A stretch of DNA of 64,000 nt from Rhodopirellula baltica SH 1 (lineage in GTDB: Bacteria > Planctomycetota > Planctomycetia > Pirellulales > Pirellulaceae), in the NCBI RefSeq assembly GCF_000196115.1, contig NC_005027.1, positions 930,001 to 994,000 of the forward strand, written 5' to 3'. Positions 5,361 to 63,434 of this stretch are shown here, in pieces. How positions within the stretch are numbered: position 1 is the stretch's first letter; the number at the start of each line of letters is the position of its first letter. The position numbers and the translations under genes were made by a program. Under the pieces are notes generated by a model. That model did no database searches and was not told the origin of the DNA. It was given only the letters and a program-made list of their open reading frames with translations.

Positions 5361-8212
5361 ACCCTTCAGAACAAGTAGTCTACGAATTCGCGAGAGCGAC
5401 CAGCCTGGACGGATGGTGGGTCTGGGCCGCCGTGGTTTTGGGTTTGGCCGTCGCTTATTTAACATGCATTTTCTATTACAAGCGAGATGTTGGCGAGCTT
5501 CGTCGCCCGGTGCGATGGACGCTGATCGGTTTGCGTTTGGTTGCCATCACAGCTCTCGTGTTCTTGTTCTTTGATTTGGTTCGGCGTACCGAGCGGCGGG
5601 TGACGCGGCCGAGCGAAGTCATCGTGATGGTTGATACCAGTCAAAGCATGTCGCTGCCGTCCGGTGATTCGATTGAGGCTCCATCGCGAGTCGAGCGAGC
5701 ACGAGAATTGGTCGCTGATTCGGAGCTGGTTCAATCGTTCGCGAAAGAGCATCGGACGAGTGTCTATCTGTTCGATCAGGCGACCGAGCCTCGTTTGGTG
5801 CAAACCAAATTCGACCAAGAGGACACATCCGCCAACAAGCAATCCTTGAACGAAGAGGCATTTGCTGAACCGGTCAGTCCGTTCGTTTTGTTCGGCGGTT
5901 TTTGTTTGGTCATTTCCGCGATCGCGTCGTTGGTCGCTTTCTCGATGGGGATCTTCGGCATCGGCCAGTCAAAGAAATCCGGCAGGCGATTGACCAAAGC
6001 AACCAGTGCCGAGACGCCCGGATCGGCTTCCGCGATCGGTTGGTCTCTGTTGGCCGCCGCGATCACGCTGGTCATCGGCATCGTTTCGATTGGCGGGGTT
6101 TATGCCGTGCACACCGACCGTTCACTGGCTCAGCTTTTCGGTAGGGAATCCACCGCTGAATCGCAACCGGAAGAGATGGATTCGAAATCAAACGAGACCG
6201 GCGATGGCGCGGAGGAGGAATCCAATTCCCCGACGATGAAGGCCGTCGATTGGGACGAAGTCATTGTCGCCGGGGGTGCTCAAAGCCGGATTGGTGACGC
6301 GTTGCGATCAGTCTTGGTAGACCACGATCCAACAACACTCGCAGGCGTGATCGTGATCACGGATGGTCAGAATAACGGTGGTGCGACGCTTTCGTCGGCA
6401 CTGGCATTGGCACGCCGTGGTGAAGTGGCGGTTTATCCTGTTGGTTTGGGAAGCAGCCAGCCACCGACCAACATCCGTGTGGTTGATTTGGAAGTCCCAC
6501 GCCGTGTTTATCCGGGAGACAAATTTGTTGTTGCTTCTGTGTTGCAGGCAACCGGAACATCGCCTTTGGAGGTGGATGTCGAATTGGTCGATGCATTGGA
6601 CACAGGCGATGAAGGAGCCGCGGCCGATGCGGAAGGCAATCCGACGGACGCAGCGACTAGCTTGCCCGGCGGCGTGGTTTTGGAAACTCAACGAGTCAAG
6701 CTGGAGCCCGATGCGACGCTCACCGACATTCGGTTTGAAGTTGAACCTCAAACGGTCGGCCGGCGACGATTGGCCGTCCGTGTCGTGGCTCCCGTCGAGG
6801 ATCGCAATGCCACCGACAACATGCAGACGGCTCGCTACGAAGTGGTCGCTCGAAAGCTGCGTGTGTTGGCCATCGCCGGAGGACCGACCCGCGAATATCG
6901 CTTCGTTCGAAACTTGCTGTTCCGAGACGAATCGGTGCAACTCGACGTGTGGCTGCAGACCGGTATTCAGGGAATGAGCCAAGACGCGGACGAGTTGCTG
7001 GCTCGGTTCCCAGAGACCGCGGAAGAGTTGTTTGAATACGACGCGGTGGTGATGTTCGATCCTGATTGGTCAGCGATCGATTCGGCATCGCTTGACTTGA
7101 TGGATCGCTTCATGACTCAGCAAGCCGGTGGTTTGGTGTTGGTGGCTGGTCCGGTTTTCCATCCGAAGATCTCGGGAGATCGTGCCGATCCGCGATCCAG
7201 TCAGATCGCTGCGTTCTTTCCAGTGAATCTGGCGACGAGAGGACCTTTGCTGGGCGGTGGACGCCAGGGTGGGTCGGAAGCATGGCCATTGAAGTTCACG
7301 CCGGAAGCTTCTCAAGCAGAGTTCCTTTGGGTGGGTGATACTCCGGAGGACAGTTTTGAAGTCTGGCAAGAATTTGGCGGATTCTACGATTACGTTGGCG
7401 TCAAAAGTGCGAAGCCCGGTGCGAAGGTTTACGCGTATTTCTCGGACCCAACCACGGAAGTCAGCGGCAGTCTGCCGATCTTCATGGCGAGCCAGTTCTA
7501 CGGTGCGGGGCGCGTCTTCTTTCAAGGCAGTGGCGAAGTGTGGCGATTGCGTGCCGGTGGCGATCGATACTTCGACAGCTATTACACCAAATTGATTCGT
7601 TGGGTCAGCGAAGGTCGACTTCTGCGAGACAGCAATCGTGGCGTGCTGTTGGTTGATTCGGACCGAGCCATGGTGGGGCAAAACATCGCGTTGCGGGCGG
7701 TTTTGGTCGATGACCAATTTCAACCGCTGACGGAGCCTTCGGTAACTGCGAAGTTGTTGGCGCCCGATGGAAAAATTAAAGACCTCAAGCTCACCCCCGC
7801 GGCGGACTCGCCTCGTGGTGGGACTTACACGGGCAACTTTGTTGTCACCAAAAGTGGCGGCTATGAAATTCAACTCGCGGTGGGCGACGCACTCGACGAA
7901 CAGTTGCTTCGCCAAAGTGTGCAAGTTCGATTGCCCACCAGCGAACTCGAACGACCTCGTCGGGCCGATGATGAATTGTCGAACTTGGCTTCGACGACTC
8001 GCGGTGAATACGTTCCCGTCGACGAGTCGACTTCGATGAGCGAAGTGAAAGCCAAGTTGGCCGAAGCGATCGTTCCGCAGTCTCAGGTCACGTTGCTGGC
8101 CGGCACGCCGGATTCCGCGTTTACGCTGCGGCGGAATGCGGTGCTGATGTGGCTGATCGCATCCGTGCTGACTTTCGAATGGGTGACACGTCGTTTGCAT
8201 CGCTTGGCTTAG
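5357..8212 (+). CDS. VWA-domain membrane protein with an internal two-helix insertion
   Basis: A 951-residue protein, last gene of the moxR operon, starting inside the stop of the BatA-like gene (ATGA). Two N-terminal helices (about residues 20-41 and 52-75) precede a VWA domain with the MIDAS motif DTSQS at 93-97. The VWA fold seems interrupted: two more strongly hydrophobic segments at about 175-201 and 227-250 lie before the domain resumes near 298 with GVIVITDGQNNGG. An amidotransferase-like region (RVLAIAGGPTREYRFVRNLL, then VVMFDPDW) and beta-rich domains follow, with a final helix AVLMWLIASVLTFEWV at the C-terminus. It probably forms a membrane complex with the BatA-like protein. Confidence 0.88.
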   Translation: MNPSEQVVYEFARATSLDGWWVWAAVVLGLAVAYLTCIFYYKRDVGELRRPVRWTLIGLRLVAITALVFLFFDLVRRTERRVTRPSEVIVMVDTSQSMSLPSGDSIEAPSRVERARELVADSELVQSFAKEHRTSVYLFDQATEPRLVQTKFDQEDTSANKQSLNEEAFAEPVSPFVLFGGFCLVISAIASLVAFSMGIFGIGQSKKSGRRLTKATSAETPGSASAIGWSLLAAAITLVIGIVSIGGVYAVHTDRSLAQLFGRESTAESQPEEMDSKSNETGDGAEEESNSPTMKAVDWDEVIVAGGAQSRIGDALRSVLVDHDPTTLAGVIVITDGQNNGGATLSSALALARRGEVAVYPVGLGSSQPPTNIRVVDLEVPRRVYPGDKFVVASVLQATGTSPLEVDVELVDALDTGDEGAAADAEGNPTDAATSLPGGVVLETQRVKLEPDATLTDIRFEVEPQTVGRRRLAVRVVAPVEDRNATDNMQTARYEVVARKLRVLAIAGGPTREYRFVRNLLFRDESVQLDVWLQTGIQGMSQDADELLARFPETAEELFEYDAVVMFDPDWSAIDSASLDLMDRFMTQQAGGLVLVAGPVFHPKISGDRADPRSSQIAAFFPVNLATRGPLLGGGRQGGSEAWPLKFTPEASQAEFLWVGDTPEDSFEVWQEFGGFYDYVGVKSAKPGAKVYAYFSDPTTEVSGSLPIFMASQFYGAGRVFFQGSGEVWRLRAGGDRYFDSYYTKLIRWVSEGRLLRDSNRGVLLVDSDRAMVGQNIALRAVLVDDQFQPLTEPSVTAKLLAPDGKIKDLKLTPAADSPRGGTYTGNFVVTKSGGYEIQLAVGDALDEQLLRQSVQVRLPTSELERPRRADDELSNLASTTRGEYVPVDESTSMSEVKAKLAEAIVPQSQVTLLAGTPDSAFTLRRNAVLMWLIASVLTFEWVTRRLHRLA

Positions 8213-57819: not shown

Positions 57820-58374
57820 ATGCCCATTCTGCCTTTTGAACCCGACTGCTACCCGGACGATCTGATCGACCAGGAAGAATCCCTCGATTCGCCGTGGTGG
57901 TTGCTGTACACCAAATCTCGGCAAGAGAAGGCGGTGATTCGTAAACTGCGCGACGCCGGTGTGCCGCATTACGCACCGATGGTCAAGCAGCGTTTTCGAT
58001 CGCCGGCCGGAAGGATGCGAGAATCGTTCGTGCCGTTGTTCTCGACCTACGTCTTTCTTCGAGGCGACGATCAAGCACGTTACGAAGCGATCTGCACGGG
58101 CTCGGTTTTGAAGGCGTCGGAGATTGTGCAGGTTCCCGATTTGATCGAGGACCTGCAGCAAATTCGTAGTTTGATCGTGATGGGCGTGCCCTTGACGATC
58201 GAAAGTCAACTGCAGCCTGGCGAGCATGTTCGAGTGAAGAACGGGACCTTCGCGGGTTACGAAGGCACGGTCATCCGCCGTGAAAACGAAACTCGCTTGC
58301 TCGTGTTTGTTCGATTCATGGAACAAGGCGTCAGTGTGAAACTCGAAGATTGCCAGCTCGAGAAAATTGACTGA
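57820..58374 (+). CDS. NusG-family antitermination factor paralogue (RfaH/UpxY-like)
   Basis: 184 residues. An N-terminal NGN domain (WWLLYTKSRQEKAVIRKLRDAGVPHYAPMVKQRF, VPLFSTYVFLRG) is followed by a KOW domain (PGEHVRVKNGTFAGYEGTVIRRENETRLLVFV). The sequence is typical of specialised NusG paralogues such as RfaH or the Bacteroides UpxY group, which act on chosen operons; the core NusG would be encoded elsewhere with secE. The PS-type operon it may serve is not in the window. ATG 57820, 105 bp behind aroB. Confidence 0.85.
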   Translation: MPILPFEPDCYPDDLIDQEESLDSPWWLLYTKSRQEKAVIRKLRDAGVPHYAPMVKQRFRSPAGRMRESFVPLFSTYVFLRGDDQARYEAICTGSVLKASEIVQVPDLIEDLQQIRSLIVMGVPLTIESQLQPGEHVRVKNGTFAGYEGTVIRRENETRLLVFVRFMEQGVSVKLEDCQLEKID

Positions 58375-58562
58375 ACAGGTGATCGTGCTCGAAACGATCA
58401 GCGTCGGCTGTGACTTTCACTTGCCTCGTTGGATGCTCGGCTGGAAGGTCGCTTAAACGCCGGGCACGGATGCTTGCTTGCTAGGCATGCATCTGCCTCT
58501 CTTTTCAACGGCAGAATCCGCTCCGCCGTCATACGCGAAAGATGCGCCATCATCCATCGCCC

Positions 58563-58591
58563 CGAAAGATGCCCAAAGTGTGCATCTTTCG
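58563..58591. repeat. 10-bp hairpin in the NusG-oxidoreductase gap
   Basis: Arms CGAAAGATGC (58563-58572 with one base offset) and GCATCTTTCG (58582-58591) surround a 9-nt loop. The word GAAAGATGC also occurs at about 58537. The gap of 392 bp has no other clear feature, and a 134-codon frame within it (58429-58833) has no protein-like composition. Confidence 0.5.
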
Positions 58592-58766
58592 AGGGATGCG
58601 CACCCTTAGAGCGGCGATGGGGCCATTCCGAGCGTTCTGGCACGCATTCGGGCGGACATTGGAATGGTGTGTGCTTTGACTCGCCGACCAGTCCTGTTCC
58701 GATCGCTCGTTCGACCGAGTGCTGCGTGAACTGCCTGTTTCACGTTCGCACGCCGCTTGTCTGTCT

Positions 58767-60776
58767 ATGCAAGGTGCTCCTCAACTCGCCGCTCCTTCCG
58801 TCGTCGATGTTCCATCGGCGAAGCGGTTGGTGATTGTCGGGGGCGGGATGGCCGCACACGGTTTTTGCAAACGAGTCATCGGCAGCACCCAGCGTTCGCG
58901 ATTCGCGATCTCGGTCTACGGCGAAGAACCACGTCCCGCGTACGATCGGGTGAACCTTTCATCCTTGTTGTCGGGGCGTCCCGAATCGGATTTGTTGCTC
59001 TCGCCCAGAGAATGGTACGAAGCCAACGACATCGATCTGCACACGGGACGTCGCATCACGCGAATCGATCTCCAGCGCCAACAGATTCACGATGATCAGG
59101 GAGGCGTCCAATCGTACGACCACCTTGTGCTGGCGACTGGATCTTATCCGTGGGTGCCACCCATTTCGGGTTCCGACAGTCCCGGAGTGTTCGTCTATCG
59201 CACGATTGATGATTTGGAAGCGATTCAGCGGTACGTTCGCGAACACGGTGCCAAGACATCGGCTGTCATCGGTGGTGGATTGCTGGGTTTGGAAGCTGCG
59301 AAGGTGATCACGGATCTTGGACTGGCGACCACCATTTTGGAGGTTGCTCCCGGATTGATGCCACGGCAGTTGGATGCACAAGCCGCGAAGGTATTGCGAG
59401 AAAAGGTTGAGTCTTTGGGCGTGGATGTTCACGTCACACGACGCACGAAAGCGATCGAACCGCGAGACGGAAGACTGACGCTGCAGTTTGAAAACGCAGA
59501 ACCGAGCCAAGTCGATATCGTTTTGGTCGCCGCGGGGATCCGTCCTCGCGACGAACTGGCTCGTGACGCTGGTTTGGAACTCGGTCCGCGAGGTGGCATT
59601 GCGGTGAACCGGAGATTGGAAACCAGCGACCCTCATGTTTTTGCAATTGGGGAATGCGCCGCTGTTGATGGCCACATCCACGGTTTGGTGGCTCCTTGTT
59701 ATCGGATGGCTGATGTTCTGGCCGCGCGTTTGGCCGGCGAGCAAACTGAGTTCGTTGACAGTGAAGAGGCCGTCGAACTGAAGTTGCTCGGCGTTCCGGT
59801 CATCACGCTCGGCAAGGCCATCGGCGAGTCGACGTCGGGAGTTGTCGTCACCCACGACGGCAAAAACGGCTATCGAAAATTGATTTTGGAACAGGGCCGT
59901 GTTGTTGGCGCAGCATCGGTCGGCGAGTGGGACGACGTGAATCTGATTCGCATGTCCGTCGCTCAACACAAACGGTTGTGGCCAACCCAACGTGTTCGTT
60001 TCCAACGGACGGGGATGCCCTATGCCGGTGGCACCGGACTTCAGATCCATCAGTGGCCAGGACACGCGACGGTGTGTTCCTGCATGGGAATCACGCGACA
60101 TCAACTCGGGATGGCGATTGCCGATGGACACGGCACTGCGGCGCAGTTATCCGCTGCGACTGGAGCCGGCACGGCCTGTGGAACCTGCACGAATTTGCTG
60201 TGCGAATTGGTTGGCGAAGGACCCGAGCAAGTCAACGTCCGAGGCAGCAAAGTCGTATTGGTCACCTCGGTTCTGGCTGCATGCTTAGCGTTGGCTCTGT
60301 TTTTGACGCCTCCGCTTCCGTTCGCCACCAGTGTCCAAGATTCTTGGCGGAAGATTGACTTGTTTTGGCGTGATGGCTTTATCAAACAAGTCACCGGGTT
60401 CTCGCTGTTGTTTTTGATGTTGGCTGCGCTTGTTTTTTCGCTACGAAAACGAGTCAAGCGAATCAGCTTTGGTGAATATGGATGGTGGCGGGCAGCTCAC
60501 GCAGCGATTGGAACGGCGATGCTGTTTGGACTGATTGTCCACACCGGTGTTCGAATGGGGAGCAATCTGAATTTTGTTCTCAGTCTCACGTTCATGCTGC
60601 TTGCCCTGGTTGGTGGTTTGGCCGGCATTGCTTCATCGCTCGAATCAAAACTGTCAGGCGATTCCGCCATGTTCATGCGTGCTTGGCGACCCAAGTTGAC
60701 TTGGATCCACATCGCGTTGTTTGTACCGCTGCCAGCGTTGTTGGCCGGTCACGTCTTTAGCGTGTATTGGTACTGA
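58767..60776 (+). CDS. FAD/NAD(P) oxidoreductase fused to BFD-type [2Fe-2S] and cytochrome b-like membrane domain
   Basis: 669 residues. Residues about 20-400 are a nitrite reductase-like, pyridine nucleotide-disulfide oxidoreductase domain with FAD motif VIVGGGMAAHGF, NAD motif SAVIGGGLLGLEAAKV and AIGECA. Residues about 432-480 form a BFD-like [2Fe-2S] domain with C437-x-C439 and C471-x-x-C474. The last 180 residues hold about five helices. Two of them carry histidine pairs spaced by 14 residues (H578/H592, H648/H662), a pattern seen in di-heme cytochromes b. Electrons could therefore run from NAD(P)H over FAD and [2Fe-2S] into the membrane. ATG 58767 is chosen; the cytochrome gene begins one base after the stop. 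Confidence 0.87.
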   Translation: MQGAPQLAAPSVVDVPSAKRLVIVGGGMAAHGFCKRVIGSTQRSRFAISVYGEEPRPAYDRVNLSSLLSGRPESDLLLSPREWYEANDIDLHTGRRITRIDLQRQQIHDDQGGVQSYDHLVLATGSYPWVPPISGSDSPGVFVYRTIDDLEAIQRYVREHGAKTSAVIGGGLLGLEAAKVITDLGLATTILEVAPGLMPRQLDAQAAKVLREKVESLGVDVHVTRRTKAIEPRDGRLTLQFENAEPSQVDIVLVAAGIRPRDELARDAGLELGPRGGIAVNRRLETSDPHVFAIGECAAVDGHIHGLVAPCYRMADVLAARLAGEQTEFVDSEEAVELKLLGVPVITLGKAIGESTSGVVVTHDGKNGYRKLILEQGRVVGAASVGEWDDVNLIRMSVAQHKRLWPTQRVRFQRTGMPYAGGTGLQIHQWPGHATVCSCMGITRHQLGMAIADGHGTAAQLSAATGAGTACGTCTNLLCELVGEGPEQVNVRGSKVVLVTSVLAACLALALFLTPPLPFATSVQDSWRKIDLFWRDGFIKQVTGFSLLFLMLAALVFSLRKRVKRISFGEYGWWRAAHAAIGTAMLFGLIVHTGVRMGSNLNFVLSLTFMLLALVGGLAGIASSLESKLSGDSAMFMRAWRPKLTWIHIALFVPLPALLAGHVFSVYWY

Positions 60777-60777
60777 C

Positions 60778-62163
60778 ATGACAACGGCCAAACAATTGTG
60801 GTTGAGTTTGATCCTCGTCAATGTGTTGGTGATCGGAGGCATCGCGTACTCGGCATTCGCGCCCGGGGCATCGACCAAGACGATGTCGTTGCCCGGCAAG
60901 ACATCGCACGGACACTATCAGATCGAAATGCGATGCGACCTGTGTCACACCGAGGGCAACGGACTGCGCGAAGATGCTTGCACCAGTTGCCATGAGGAAG
61001 AATTGCGATTGGCCAAGGACACACATCCGGCCAGCAAATTCAATGATCCGACCAATGCTGAGTTGTTGTCTGTTTTGGATGCCACCAATTGTGTTACCTG
61101 CCACCGAGAGCATGTCGCCGAACAGACGTTGCCGATGGGGCTGACGATGCCGTCGGACTACTGCTATCACTGCCATCAAGAGACGCTTGAGACACGCGCC
61201 AGTCACGCGGATTTTAAGTTTGACTCTTGTGCGACGGCCGGTTGTCACAACTATCACGACAACCGTGCACTCTACGAAAACTTCCTACTGAAGCACGTCG
61301 ATGAAAACGATTTTCTCGACGAGATGGTCGGGCTGACTCGCGAGCCCATGTCGATTGAATCTGAAACATCTTTGTCGGTAGCGGATGCCGATGCACCCGG
61401 CGAATGGTCAGGCACCGCTTTCGATGACTTGGAACTCCTGAATGACTGGGCCAGCACGGCTCACGCCTCGGCCGGTGTGAATTGCAGCGGTTGCCATCTG
61501 GAGTCGCCCGGCGCAGAGACGGAGGCTGTTTCCACAGGCGACCAAGCTTGGAACCTTGAAGTGTCCGTGCAGACGTGTGGCGCTTGCCATACGGGACAGA
61601 TGGAAACGTTTTTTCAAGGTCATCATGGAATGCGTTTGGCGGCGGATCTGCCGCCGATGACACCGGGTGATGCTCGGATCTCAATGCATGCCGATTCATC
61701 GCACCGTCAGCTTGAATGCAACGCGTGTCATTCTGGACATCGATTCGACACGGCGTATGCATCCGTCGATGCTTGCTTGAAGTGTCATGCCGACGAACAT
61801 AGTCAGGCGTTTCTGACGACCAGCCACTATGCCGCATGGCAGAACGAGATTTCCGGGACGGCACCGGCGGGCAGTGGTGTTTCGTGCGCGACTTGTCACA
61901 TGCCGCGATTGGAAGACGACGACGGAAACGTTTGGGCCAATCACAATCAAAACGACAATCTTCGGCCCAATGAAAAGATGATCCGTGATGTATGCATGCA
62001 GTGTCATGGAGTTGGCTTTTCGATTGATGCGTTGGCGGATGAACATCTGATTCAGAACTGCTTCGCCGACGCACCATCTGTACATGTTGAAAGTATTGAC
62101 CTCGTGAAAGCGAGATTCGAAGAAAGACAACGCAAGAAGGAGGCTCGTTCGAAGAAGAAGTGA
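60778..62163 (+). CDS. Multiheme cytochrome c (11 heme-binding motifs)
   Basis: 461 residues, an N-terminal membrane anchor or signal sequence (LWLSLILVNVLVIGGIAYSAF) and an extracytoplasmic multiheme domain. Ten CxxCH motifs are visible (CDLCH, CTSCH, CVTCH, CYHCH, CSGCH, CGACH, CNACH, CLKCH, CATCH, CMQCH) plus one CX4CH (CATAGCH at residues 151-157). Many extra histidines could serve as distal ligands. The C-terminus is basic (RQRKKEARSKKK). Separated from the oxidoreductase gene by one base, so it is almost surely its electron partner. It is probably a cytochrome c3-like or NrfB/Tsd-type family member. Confidence 0.92.
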   Translation: MTTAKQLWLSLILVNVLVIGGIAYSAFAPGASTKTMSLPGKTSHGHYQIEMRCDLCHTEGNGLREDACTSCHEEELRLAKDTHPASKFNDPTNAELLSVLDATNCVTCHREHVAEQTLPMGLTMPSDYCYHCHQETLETRASHADFKFDSCATAGCHNYHDNRALYENFLLKHVDENDFLDEMVGLTREPMSIESETSLSVADADAPGEWSGTAFDDLELLNDWASTAHASAGVNCSGCHLESPGAETEAVSTGDQAWNLEVSVQTCGACHTGQMETFFQGHHGMRLAADLPPMTPGDARISMHADSSHRQLECNACHSGHRFDTAYASVDACLKCHADEHSQAFLTTSHYAAWQNEISGTAPAGSGVSCATCHMPRLEDDDGNVWANHNQNDNLRPNEKMIRDVCMQCHGVGFSIDALADEHLIQNCFADAPSVHVESIDLVKARFEERQRKKEARSKKK

Positions 62164-62276: not shown

Positions 62277-62900
62277 ATGTTTTTCAGATTCAAACCCAAC
62301 GCTTTCCTTTTCAGTCTGCTTTGCCTGCTCATCGCGACCTCCACCGGATGCGGCAGTGGTGCAAACGCTTCGGCAACACCATCGGAGCCAGCCGAACCGG
62401 GCATCCCGTACAAGAAGTTTGCCGATGCGGTGCATGCGGTGATGATGGCCGATCGCACGGTTTATGCATCAAAGGTGGTCACGCGGTTGAAAAAGCAAGA
62501 TGCCCCGGTGACGCCCAGTGAGTACTGGGAGGACGAAGAGCACACGATTCCATTGCCGGCACAAATGTTTCGAATGGGGTCGGAGTTAGTGTTCGACAAT
62601 CCCGAGGCCGGATTCACTTATGCACTCAAAAGCAAATGGCCTCTCAACGAACAGAACAAACCAAAGAGCGAACTCGAGATCACCGCGTTGGACTTCATCG
62701 CTGAGAATCCAACCGAAAACTTCTACGGCGAAGAAGAACTGGGTGGTGAGAAGTACTTCGTCGCCGCCTATGCCGACAAAGCCGTCGCGGAAGCATGTTG
62801 GAGTTGCCACAACGATCACCCCAATCGAGGCGATGACTATCCGGAGTTTGTCAAAGACGATGTCATGGGCGGCGTCATTGTTCGAGTGCCCATGAAGTAG
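62277..62900 (+). CDS. Lipoprotein with Tll0287-like (DUF3365) single-heme domain
   Basis: 207 residues. The signal LFSLLCLLIATSTGC ends in a lipobox with the lipidated Cys. The body resembles the DUF3365/Tll0287-like heme domain (YKKFADAVHAVMMADRTVYASKVV, FVAAYADKAVAEACWSCHNDHPN) with one CxxCH (CWSCH) near the C-terminus. Such domains are haem sensors or small electron carriers. It lies 113 bp downstream of the multiheme cytochrome. Confidence 0.85.
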   Translation: MFFRFKPNAFLFSLLCLLIATSTGCGSGANASATPSEPAEPGIPYKKFADAVHAVMMADRTVYASKVVTRLKKQDAPVTPSEYWEDEEHTIPLPAQMFRMGSELVFDNPEAGFTYALKSKWPLNEQNKPKSELEITALDFIAENPTENFYGEEELGGEKYFVAAYADKAVAEACWSCHNDHPNRGDDYPEFVKDDVMGGVIVRVPMK

Positions 62901-63017
62901 CAGTCATTCATCGGCACGGCGCCCATGCCGTGATTGGATGAAACGAACCAGATCATTCTCGTGGGAATCTCGTTCCCAATTCATTTCAAAATCACTGATT
63001 CAAAGAGCACACTCGAC

Positions 63018-63434
63018 ATGACTCCAGAACAAGTCACTCTCGTCAAAGAAAGTTGGGAAAAGGTCAAGCCGATTTCAGAGCAGGCCGCGGAGCTGTTTTA
63101 CGGAAGGTTGTTCACGCTCGATCCGAGCCTCCGGTCCTTGTTCAAAGGCGACATGAGCGAACAAGGCAAGAAGCTGATGAGCACGATCACGCTGGCGGTG
63201 ACTTCACTCGATCGACTCGAAACGATTTTGCCGACCGTTCAAGCATTGGGTCGGAAGCACGCGGTCGAATACGAGGTGCCTGATTCCAGCTATGCAACGG
63301 TCGGCGAAGCATTGATTTGGACGCTCGGGCAAGGCCTCGGTGACGACTTTACCGAGGACGTGAAGGAGGCTTGGTTGTTGACCTACACCACACTATCGGG
63401 CGCGATGCTGAGCGGCAAATCCACGGCGGCATAA
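63018..63434 (+). CDS. Single-domain bacterial globin
   Basis: 138 residues, without the reductase domain of flavohemoglobins. Matches the bacterial globin pattern MTPEQVTLVKESWEKVKPISEQAAELFYGRLFTLDPSLRSLFKGDMSEQGKKLM, with Tyr in the B10 region (LFYGRLF), Gln in the distal region (SEQGKKL) and the proximal His in LGRKHAVEYEV. A role in O2 or NO chemistry is expected for the family. ATG 63018 gives the normal N-terminus; upstream in-frame codons are not protein-like. It is the last gene of the redox cluster. Confidence 0.92.
   Translation: MTPEQVTLVKESWEKVKPISEQAAELFYGRLFTLDPSLRSLFKGDMSEQGKKLMSTITLAVTSLDRLETILPTVQALGRKHAVEYEVPDSSYATVGEALIWTLGQGLGDDFTEDVKEAWLLTYTTLSGAMLSGKSTAA

Follow-up and report, generated by a model that had tools for sequence, protein, structure and literature searches.

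A conserved bacterial gene set for probable electron transfer from NADH across the membrane to an 11-heme cytochrome

A 64,000-nucleotide stretch of the Rhodopirellula baltica SH 1 genome (the window; positions 930001–994000 of the single 7,145,576-base contig) carries a run of four forward-strand genes, of which the first two encode a flavin- and iron–sulfur-type membrane protein and an 11-heme cytochrome c. The run belongs to a conserved bacterial gene set, apparently undescribed, that looks built to export electrons from NADH across the membrane to the 11 hemes. We consider it probable that this unit functions as a transmembrane NAD(P)H:multiheme cytochrome c oxidoreductase, exporting electrons and serving the handling of nitric oxide (NO) or nitrite linked to nitrate use. 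A preliminary description of this DNA had proposed a route from NAD(P)H through flavin adenine dinucleotide (FAD), a [2Fe-2S] cluster and two b hemes to 11 c hemes, and for each element of this putative route we find sequence features that are conserved across phyla. The stretch then described ended before genes 3 (62277–62900) and 4 (a globin), and the unit is therefore larger than it first appeared.

A scan for carriers with gene 2 as the query, in a collection with one genome per species, gave 316 pattern matches and 292 relatives. Counts out of 80 loci refer throughout to the best 80 of these 292. All 80 loci have the core, consisting of the membrane part of gene 1 plus genes 2 and 3, together on one strand, and this conserved linkage is more than chance. 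The FAD part of gene 1 is present at 78 loci; it was not found at L092, which lies at a contig end, or at L109. A globin of the gene 4 type occurs at 53 loci and a truncated globin at five that lack gene 4, such that one kind or the other is present at 58. The genes run 1-2-3 at 74 loci, and the other six (L059, L062, L065, L085, L102 and L107) have the order 3-1-2. Because the core remains together at these six, the partnership appears to outlast rearrangement.

Judging by record names, the hosts include Planctomycetes, Verrucomicrobia, Lentisphaerae, Poribacteria, Alpha-, Beta- and Gammaproteobacteria, Polyangium and a metagenome-assembled genome of Dadabacteria. The closest named relative of gene 2 among the best 80 is that of R. 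europaea (87% identity). A survey of 149 genomes of the host's family matched the membrane domain in 28 at E 0.001, and 19 of these matches, including that of R. baltica SH 1, are full length. In the 19 carriers, genes 1 and 2 cluster in every case, gene 3 joins them in 18 and the globin in 14, with the caveat that clustering can miss genes. No relatives of the module were found on viral contigs by single-protein queries, which reach close relatives only, and none were found on plasmids. Two loci deserve separate mention. Genes 1 and 3 of L075 (Planctomycetes bacterium SV_7m_r) are each broken into two open reading frames (ORFs), reflecting either a decaying copy or sequencing errors. The locus L086 (PPHI01000001.1) is labelled Rhodopirellula baltica strain BR-MGV, but its gene 2 shares only 53% identity with that of the window and the label may be wrong.

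Gene 1 (58719–60776, forward strand) encodes 685 amino acids if translation starts at the GTG at 58719, or 669 if it starts at the ATG at 58767. Domain searches agree with the one-chain fusion proposed earlier, in which a NirB-type FAD/NAD(P)H domain is joined to a BFD-type [2Fe-2S] domain and five predicted helices. Pfam models place Pyr_redox_2 at residues 36–317, Rubredoxin_C at 353–414 and Fer2_BFD at 451–497 (60069–60209). Against the NirB model TIGR02374 the chain scores 432.9 bits (cut-off 578.35), matching profile positions 1–465 of 794. The domain scan did not find NIR_SIR, the siroheme/4Fe-4S half, in the chain, and for this reason we rejected the possibility that gene 1 is a nitrite reductase. 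The N-terminal part of NirB and the NasB/NorW-type flavoproteins resemble gene 1 in having an FAD/NAD domain followed by BFD, whereas NirB has its siroheme nitrite-reductase half where gene 1 has the five-helix membrane domain.

The cofactor-binding features of this region are strongly conserved. In an alignment of 74 full gene 1 chains (that of the window and 73 others, filtered on length and on the presence of both modules), the BFD cysteines C453, C455, C487 and C490 are kept in every row and the GGGLLG dinucleotide motif is nearly invariant. Glu208, a residue of the class that often favors NADH, is found in 49 rows by column counts. In three Polyangium loci (L112, L115 and L123), the gene 1 chains are 1252–1297 amino acids long with both modules present, and the only extra seen by eye is a long, low-complexity linker rich in Ser, Pro and Arg between the BFD and membrane domains.

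The membrane domain (60228–60773) is predicted, from the sequence of its helices, to cross the membrane five times. Its model, based on 80 sequences (pLDDT 94.8), has five long helices plus a short helix in a loop. The histidines originally numbered H578/H592 and H648/H662 from position 58767 are H594/H608 and H664/H678 when counted from 58719, and the members of both pairs are indeed 14 residues apart. In the model, all four lie inside helices rather than apart or outside the membrane; the pairs sit in long helices 3 and 5, the latter being interrupted between its two histidines. The homologues keep them as well: H594, H608 and H664 are present in all 80 rows of the domain alignment (the window and 79 of the loci, with the fragment L092 left out) and H678 in 79 (Arg in L106). 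Cytochrome b and NOX likewise carry paired histidines 14 residues apart in two of their helices, and the four conserved histidines fit a predicted pair of stacked b hemes. An Arg-Lys-Arg sequence after long helix 2 is conserved in 78, 78 and 79 of the 80 rows, which suggests that this side of the membrane is cytoplasmic, and thus that H594/H664 are near the inside and H608/H678 near the outside.

Profile and fold comparisons for this domain are less specific. Ni_hydr_CYTB weakly matches 34 of 80 members (best E 1.5e-6), DUF4405 matches 46 (best 3.2e-5) and Ferric_reduct nine (best E 0.021). For the domain of the window itself, Ni_hydr_CYTB yields only E 0.15 and DUF4405 is not among the listed matches, and it is these weak matches of family members that constitute the likeness to prokaryotic cytochrome b561 and DUF4405 proteins. 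Foldseek returned no match to the model at E 0.001. Structure comparison gave Z values of 10.4 for superoxide oxidase (5oc0), 9.4 for cytochrome b6 (2e74), 8.4 for b561 (4o6y) and 7.3 for NOX5. However, soluble talin bundles score as high as 11.9, and thus a fold match alone says little. At these Z values, the cytochrome b6, b561, superoxide oxidase and NOX folds are indistinguishable. By analogy, the domain would work like cytochrome b or NOX, although the matches leave its membership of a single family unassigned. NOX/FRE flavocytochromes provide a working parallel, since they combine cytoplasmic NAD(P)H and flavin with two stacked b hemes and send electrons outward, as the module would. The module would differ from them in its flavin domain, its extra [2Fe-2S] cluster and its dedicated 11-heme acceptor.

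Gene 2 (60778–62163, forward strand, 461 amino acids) starts with an ATG at 60778, one base beyond the gene 1 stop at 60776, as first reported. A helix predicted at residues 2–27 is taken as a putative membrane anchor. The protein has 10 CXXCH sites and one CX4CH site, and all 11 are invariant in an 81-row alignment of the window and all 80 loci. Each locus has exactly 10 CXXCH sites, and the chain of the window has no CXXCK. Hemes 1–5 occupy the N-terminal half (approximately residues 52–160; 60931–61257), with heme 5 being the CX4CH site, and six more occupy the C-terminal half (approximately residues 203–432; 61384–62073). Ten histidines outside the motifs are invariant (residues 46, 112, 143, 160, 229, 283, 321, 341, 350 and 389) and three more nearly so (H83 in 80 rows, H173 in 77 and H44 in 74). 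These are enough to supply a second histidine to every heme. In the C-terminal half there are six such histidines for six hemes, a count that neither calls for an open heme nor rules one out.

Pfam and NCBIfam scans of gene 2 gave general multiheme matches only. Its model (pLDDT 79, with lower confidence in the N-terminal half) matched nothing in Foldseek at E 0.001; the top hit was a hydroxylamine oxidoreductase (HAO) at 3.7e-3. In a structural comparison of residues ∼203–432, 25 of 28 rows were named HAO, HAO-like, hydrazine dehydrogenase (HDH), octaheme nitrite reductase (ONR) or NrfA. The Z values of the HAO-type rows and of one "hypothetical multiheme protein" are middling (7.0 to 5.0; 4n4m superimposes at 3.9 Å over 194 residues). 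The remaining two rows are the Mtr complex (Z 3.7) and the Carboxydothermus S-layer cytochrome 6qvm (Z 3.6), which has 11 hemes by its title and ranks last, below every HAO, ONR and NrfA chain.

Profile–profile comparison with hhalign is more decisive. The profile sets for HAO and NrfA were each built after 13 of 30 loci without a usable ORF were left out. The C-terminal half aligned to 17 HAO-type proteins with 99.4% probability (E 1.2e-21, 192 columns) and to NrfA at E 9.5e-7 over 48 columns. The N-terminal half served as an internal control, with E 1.3e-7 against HAO (73 columns) and E 0.0024 against NrfA. By sequence comparison, then, the kinship of the C-terminal half with HAO is clear. 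Hemes 6, 7, 8, 9, 10 and 11 of gene 2 align with HAO hemes 2, 3, 5, 6, 7 and 8, whereas HAO hemes 1 and 4 have no counterpart. Heme 4, which we take to be the catalytic heme of HAO, falls in an alignment gap. We take this alignment to be right, in which case the C-terminal half would be a wire rather than a nitrite or hydroxylamine enzyme, and it looks like one. We accordingly rejected gene 2 as an NrfA- or HAO-type enzyme, given the missing counterpart of the catalytic heme. In NrfA and ONR, the catalytic heme is the CXXCK heme. A weaker alternative alignment places heme 9 of gene 2 near the catalytic heme of ONR. Overall, the C-terminal half resembles HAO, ONR and NrfA in its fold and in the order of its hemes, but it has six hemes and is preceded by five others.

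An HAO fold could also mean that the complex runs in reverse, with this half oxidizing a nitrogen compound in the periplasm and electrons passing inward to NAD+. Such an oxidase would have to manage without the counterpart of the catalytic heme, and, according to established bioenergetics, electrons moving inward to NAD+ would have to climb both a redox and an electrical gradient. We regard this scenario as extremely unlikely. Outward flow from NADH is downhill in both respects.

An 11-heme cytochrome is also part of the Uet pathway of Tenderiales and Gallionella, which is described in excerpts of its report with a porin, tetraheme and triheme cytochromes, NHL-repeat proteins and a peptidylprolyl isomerase (PMC10734462). 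None of these partner types was seen among the ORFs around the R. baltica unit, which were read by eye rather than searched with profiles of these families.

The genes that follow gene 2 point toward nitrogen oxides. Gene 3 (62277–62900, forward strand, 207 amino acids) encodes a Tll0287-like c-heme protein that matches sCache_heme (PF11845) with 61.2 bits (cut-off 24.1). Its CXXCH is present in 80 of the 81 rows of its alignment, and its N-terminus appears lipoprotein-like by eye. Excerpts of a preprint describe the family as Cache domains with a c heme, and report that a signaling member binds NO tightly and that a stand-alone member from P. putida has Cys/His ligation and releases NO quickly (PMC12889525). 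Gene 3 keeps no domain cysteine outside the CXXCH in the 81-row alignment, and thus its second ligand probably differs from that of the P. putida example. At two loci (L042, positions 6978–7466, and its counterpart in L043), a small membrane protein of 162–164 amino acids with two hydrophobic stretches by eye replaces the globin beside gene 3.

Gene 4 (62934–63434, forward strand) encodes a single-domain globin (PF00042, 52.7 bits) that starts at 62934 or, as is likely, at the ATG at 63018. Tyr56, Gln77, Phe70 and His109 are kept in all 54 rows of its alignment, and we take these residues to be equivalent to B10, E7, CD1 and F8 of flavohemoglobin (Hmp). The best matches among solved structures are 3s1i and 3ubc, annotated as "hemoglobin-like flavoprotein." By its Tyr, Gln and proximal His, this globin appears to be a flavohemoglobin-type domain with putative NO dioxygenase activity. 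A similar pairing occurs in the Bradyrhizobium narK-bjgb-flp-nasC operon, where a flavoprotein and a single-domain globin, both linked with nitrate assimilation, guard against the NO that assimilation produces (PMC4724949). In the excerpted text of that paper, neither a membrane domain nor a multiheme cytochrome is mentioned for the operon, and in this it differs from the module.

To assess the genomic context, neighboring genes at the 80 loci were clustered and one representative of each main cluster was scanned with profiles. Because the flanks extend 7 kb at most, the resulting counts are lower bounds. At least one gene of a nitrate-assimilation type (a transporter, ANTAR, NIR_SIR, an extra NirB-type or a CysJ-like gene of these clusters) lies in the flank at 31 loci, or at 29 if CysJ-like genes alone are excluded and at 27 by nitrate-transporter genes alone. 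An NMT1_2 substrate-binding protein of the NrtA kind is found near 24 loci, an NtrB-like permease (representative below cut-off) near 20, an NtrCD ATPase (over cut-off) near 13 and an ANTAR regulator, NasT-like by its position, near 11. A small cytochrome c cluster lies near 16 loci, and an Rrf2 regulator near four; the one Rrf2 protein scanned is nearest NsrR, below cut-off. Also present, near 17 loci, is an outer-membrane-type cluster (one member scanned: Alginate_exp) that is perhaps a nitrate uptake channel.

The family survey gives a similar picture. These co-occurrence counts ignore relatedness, and the score thresholds were chosen after the hits were seen. At a threshold of at least 115 bits, an NrtB-like permease is found in 18 of 19 carriers compared with 24 of 130 non-carriers (Fisher 8e-11, with kinship ignored and the threshold post hoc). 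The corresponding values are 17 of 19 and 19 of 130 at 140 bits, and 18 of 19 and 29 of 130 at 100 bits. Only two of the 149 genomes pass the family's own cut-off for this permease. In four genomes (G086, G114, G129 and G148), it lies within ∼10 kb of the module. These counts suggest that the module goes with nitrate users, yet not every nitrate user requires it.

Other bacteria use FAD-BFD proteins to serve their assimilatory nitrate reductases. On this precedent, gene 1 could be a membrane-tethered NasB-like subunit that feeds a cytoplasmic NasA, a second supply of electrons coming from the periplasmic hemes, and the nitrate-assimilation genes at 31 of 80 loci would be in keeping with such a role. 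Several observations make this quite unlikely. Inward flow from the periplasm would oppose the membrane potential, and the 24 non-carriers noted above have an NrtB-like permease without the module. Furthermore, R. baltica SH 1 has its own nitrate-assimilation cluster far from the window, with an NrtB-like permease at 186.6 kb. The ORFs at 188–198 kb were read by eye as a transporter ATPase, an Fe-S/membrane protein, a NasA-like protein (753 amino acids) and a CysJ-like flavoprotein, plus a nitrite reductase that is supported by a NIR_SIR match. Elsewhere in this genome, outside the window, G000:C1:6059330-6060748 has a strong NrfA-type match (PF02335) interrupted by two in-frame stops and is perhaps broken or frameshifted.

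A less specialized role is also conceivable, namely a general overflow of reductant through an NADH-driven conduit to periplasmic or outer-membrane acceptors such as oxygen, metals or a cytochrome oxidase, in which nitrogen oxides would have no particular part. The multiheme wire would suit this role, as would the small cytochrome c and Alginate_exp-type clusters near 16 and 17 of the loci. We nevertheless judge it unlikely, given the recurring nitrate-transporter, ANTAR, NsrR-like and globin partners and the fact that inspection of the ORFs around the unit, by eye only, revealed no porin-cytochrome partner.

The reading that we favor, electron export that serves the handling of NO or nitrite, can be laid out as a series of steps. 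Gene 1 would oxidize cytoplasmic NAD(P)H, with hydride passing to FAD. The [2Fe-2S] cluster of the BFD domain would then relay single electrons from FAD to the two stacked b hemes held by helices 3 and 5, which would carry them across the membrane from the H594/H664 heme to the H608/H678 heme. The membrane-anchored 11-heme protein, facing the periplasm, would take electrons from the b hemes and pass them to the periplasmic c-heme protein of gene 3 or, in other species, to a small cytochrome c. The job of the system would be the reductive handling of NO or nitrite that arises during nitrate use, and the cytoplasmic globin would be its NO-binding arm, possibly re-reduced by gene 1. The electron route as such is well supported by the sequences, which show the domains, the conserved ligands, the constant gene partners and the nitrate context. 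We infer the actual flow of electrons, its direction, the acceptor and the role in NO handling and, with less confidence, that NO or nitrite is the sink and that gene 3 or the small cytochrome c is the taker.

Regulation was considered as a further indication of function. Upstream of gene 1 is a perfect 10-bp palindrome, CGAAAGATGC-N9-GCATCTTTCG (58563–58591), which is a candidate NsrR-type operator or an RNA hairpin, and a second copy of its left arm is located at 58536–58545. The core AAGATGC-N9-GCATCTT occurs without mismatch at this one place in the 7.1-Mb genome. Two one-mismatch sites elsewhere in the genome are not beside NO genes, as judged by eye, and 23 of 100 shuffles of the window gave at least one core match with two mismatches or fewer. 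Compared with the NsrR motif gATGyAT-N5-ATrCATc given in excerpts of its description (PMC1274295), the palindrome fits in spacing and in its outer half-sites, whereas three of four inner A/T positions do not fit. In R. europaea (L054), the second pair from the outside is changed from G-C to A-T on both arms, a symmetric change that keeps the palindrome. For one of the four Rrf2 proteins of the R. baltica genome, the top-scoring equivalog model is NsrR (91.3 bits, cut-off 182). We count the palindrome as a lead toward an NsrR-type operator. Scans for promoters and terminators gave nothing beyond chance expectation, and no Rfam family scored up to its gathering threshold. An RfaH/UpxY-like NusG paralogue (57820–58374; NF033644, 80 bits, cut-off 100) lies directly upstream of the unit.

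Various observations weigh against the link to NO and nitrate that we propose. No nitrate-assimilation type gene is seen at 49 of the 80 loci within the flank covered. Since the HAO-type half has no counterpart of heme 4, the set contains no recognized enzyme for NO or nitrite. The preprint cited above, as excerpted, assigns stand-alone members of the gene 3 family redox rather than NO-sensing roles (PMC12889525), although with a probably different second ligand its conclusion transfers directly in neither direction. A simple NO-dioxygenase role is at odds with the 22 of 80 loci that show neither kind of globin in the stretch covered. R. baltica SH 1 also has a full flavohemoglobin, and such proteins are commoner in carriers (11 of 19) than in non-carriers (25 of 130; Fisher 7e-4, kinship ignored), which led us to reject the module as a stand-in for flavohemoglobin. 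Finally, an NsrR-like palindrome upstream of gene 1 is perfect at only one of 76 other loci. These were the loci with at least 200 bases upstream, including six gene 3-first loci where gene 1 does not start the run; three had palindromes with three mismatches and 72 with four or more, and the site was therefore rejected as a general NsrR operator of the module.

A bolder version of the export reading can also be put forward. The set might constitute a distinct and widely shared NADH-driven periplasmic reductase complex for NO (or nitrite), in which the degenerate HAO-type wire feeds a new active site, perhaps the c heme of gene 3, while the globin handles NO inside the cell. We offer this version tentatively, as a possibility on which we would not rely.

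A second, different conduit may exist in two Pirellulaceae genomes. At L052 (2288–9797) and L053 (5759–10956), with domains assigned by eye and a weak membrane match, we observed a protein with cyclic-nucleotide-binding-like and 4Fe-4S parts (602/616 amino acids), a diheme-b-like membrane protein (286/296 amino acids) and a cytochrome with 10 CXXCH sites (807/809 amino acids). At L052 only, an NAD/flavin-2Fe-2S reductase and a tetraheme protein lie ahead of the conduit genes.

The earlier statement that no named complex has this order still stands, in that word matches to titles and the starts of abstracts in the open-access literature returned no description of this gene set. Its parts belong to known families, and their combination, together with the putative HAO-type wire, matches no named system among those compared. 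If the proposed function is true, the module would represent a new way from cytoplasmic NADH directly to periplasmic hemes by means of one chain and one cytochrome. It would not be rare, with 292 gene 2 relatives in a single species-level genome collection and the core set in all of the best 80. If the link to nitrogen oxides also holds, many nitrate users would have an unstudied means of handling NO or nitrite. Moreover, an HAO-type fold that is kept as a wire without its catalytic heme would bear on the evolution of the multiheme enzymes of the nitrogen cycle.

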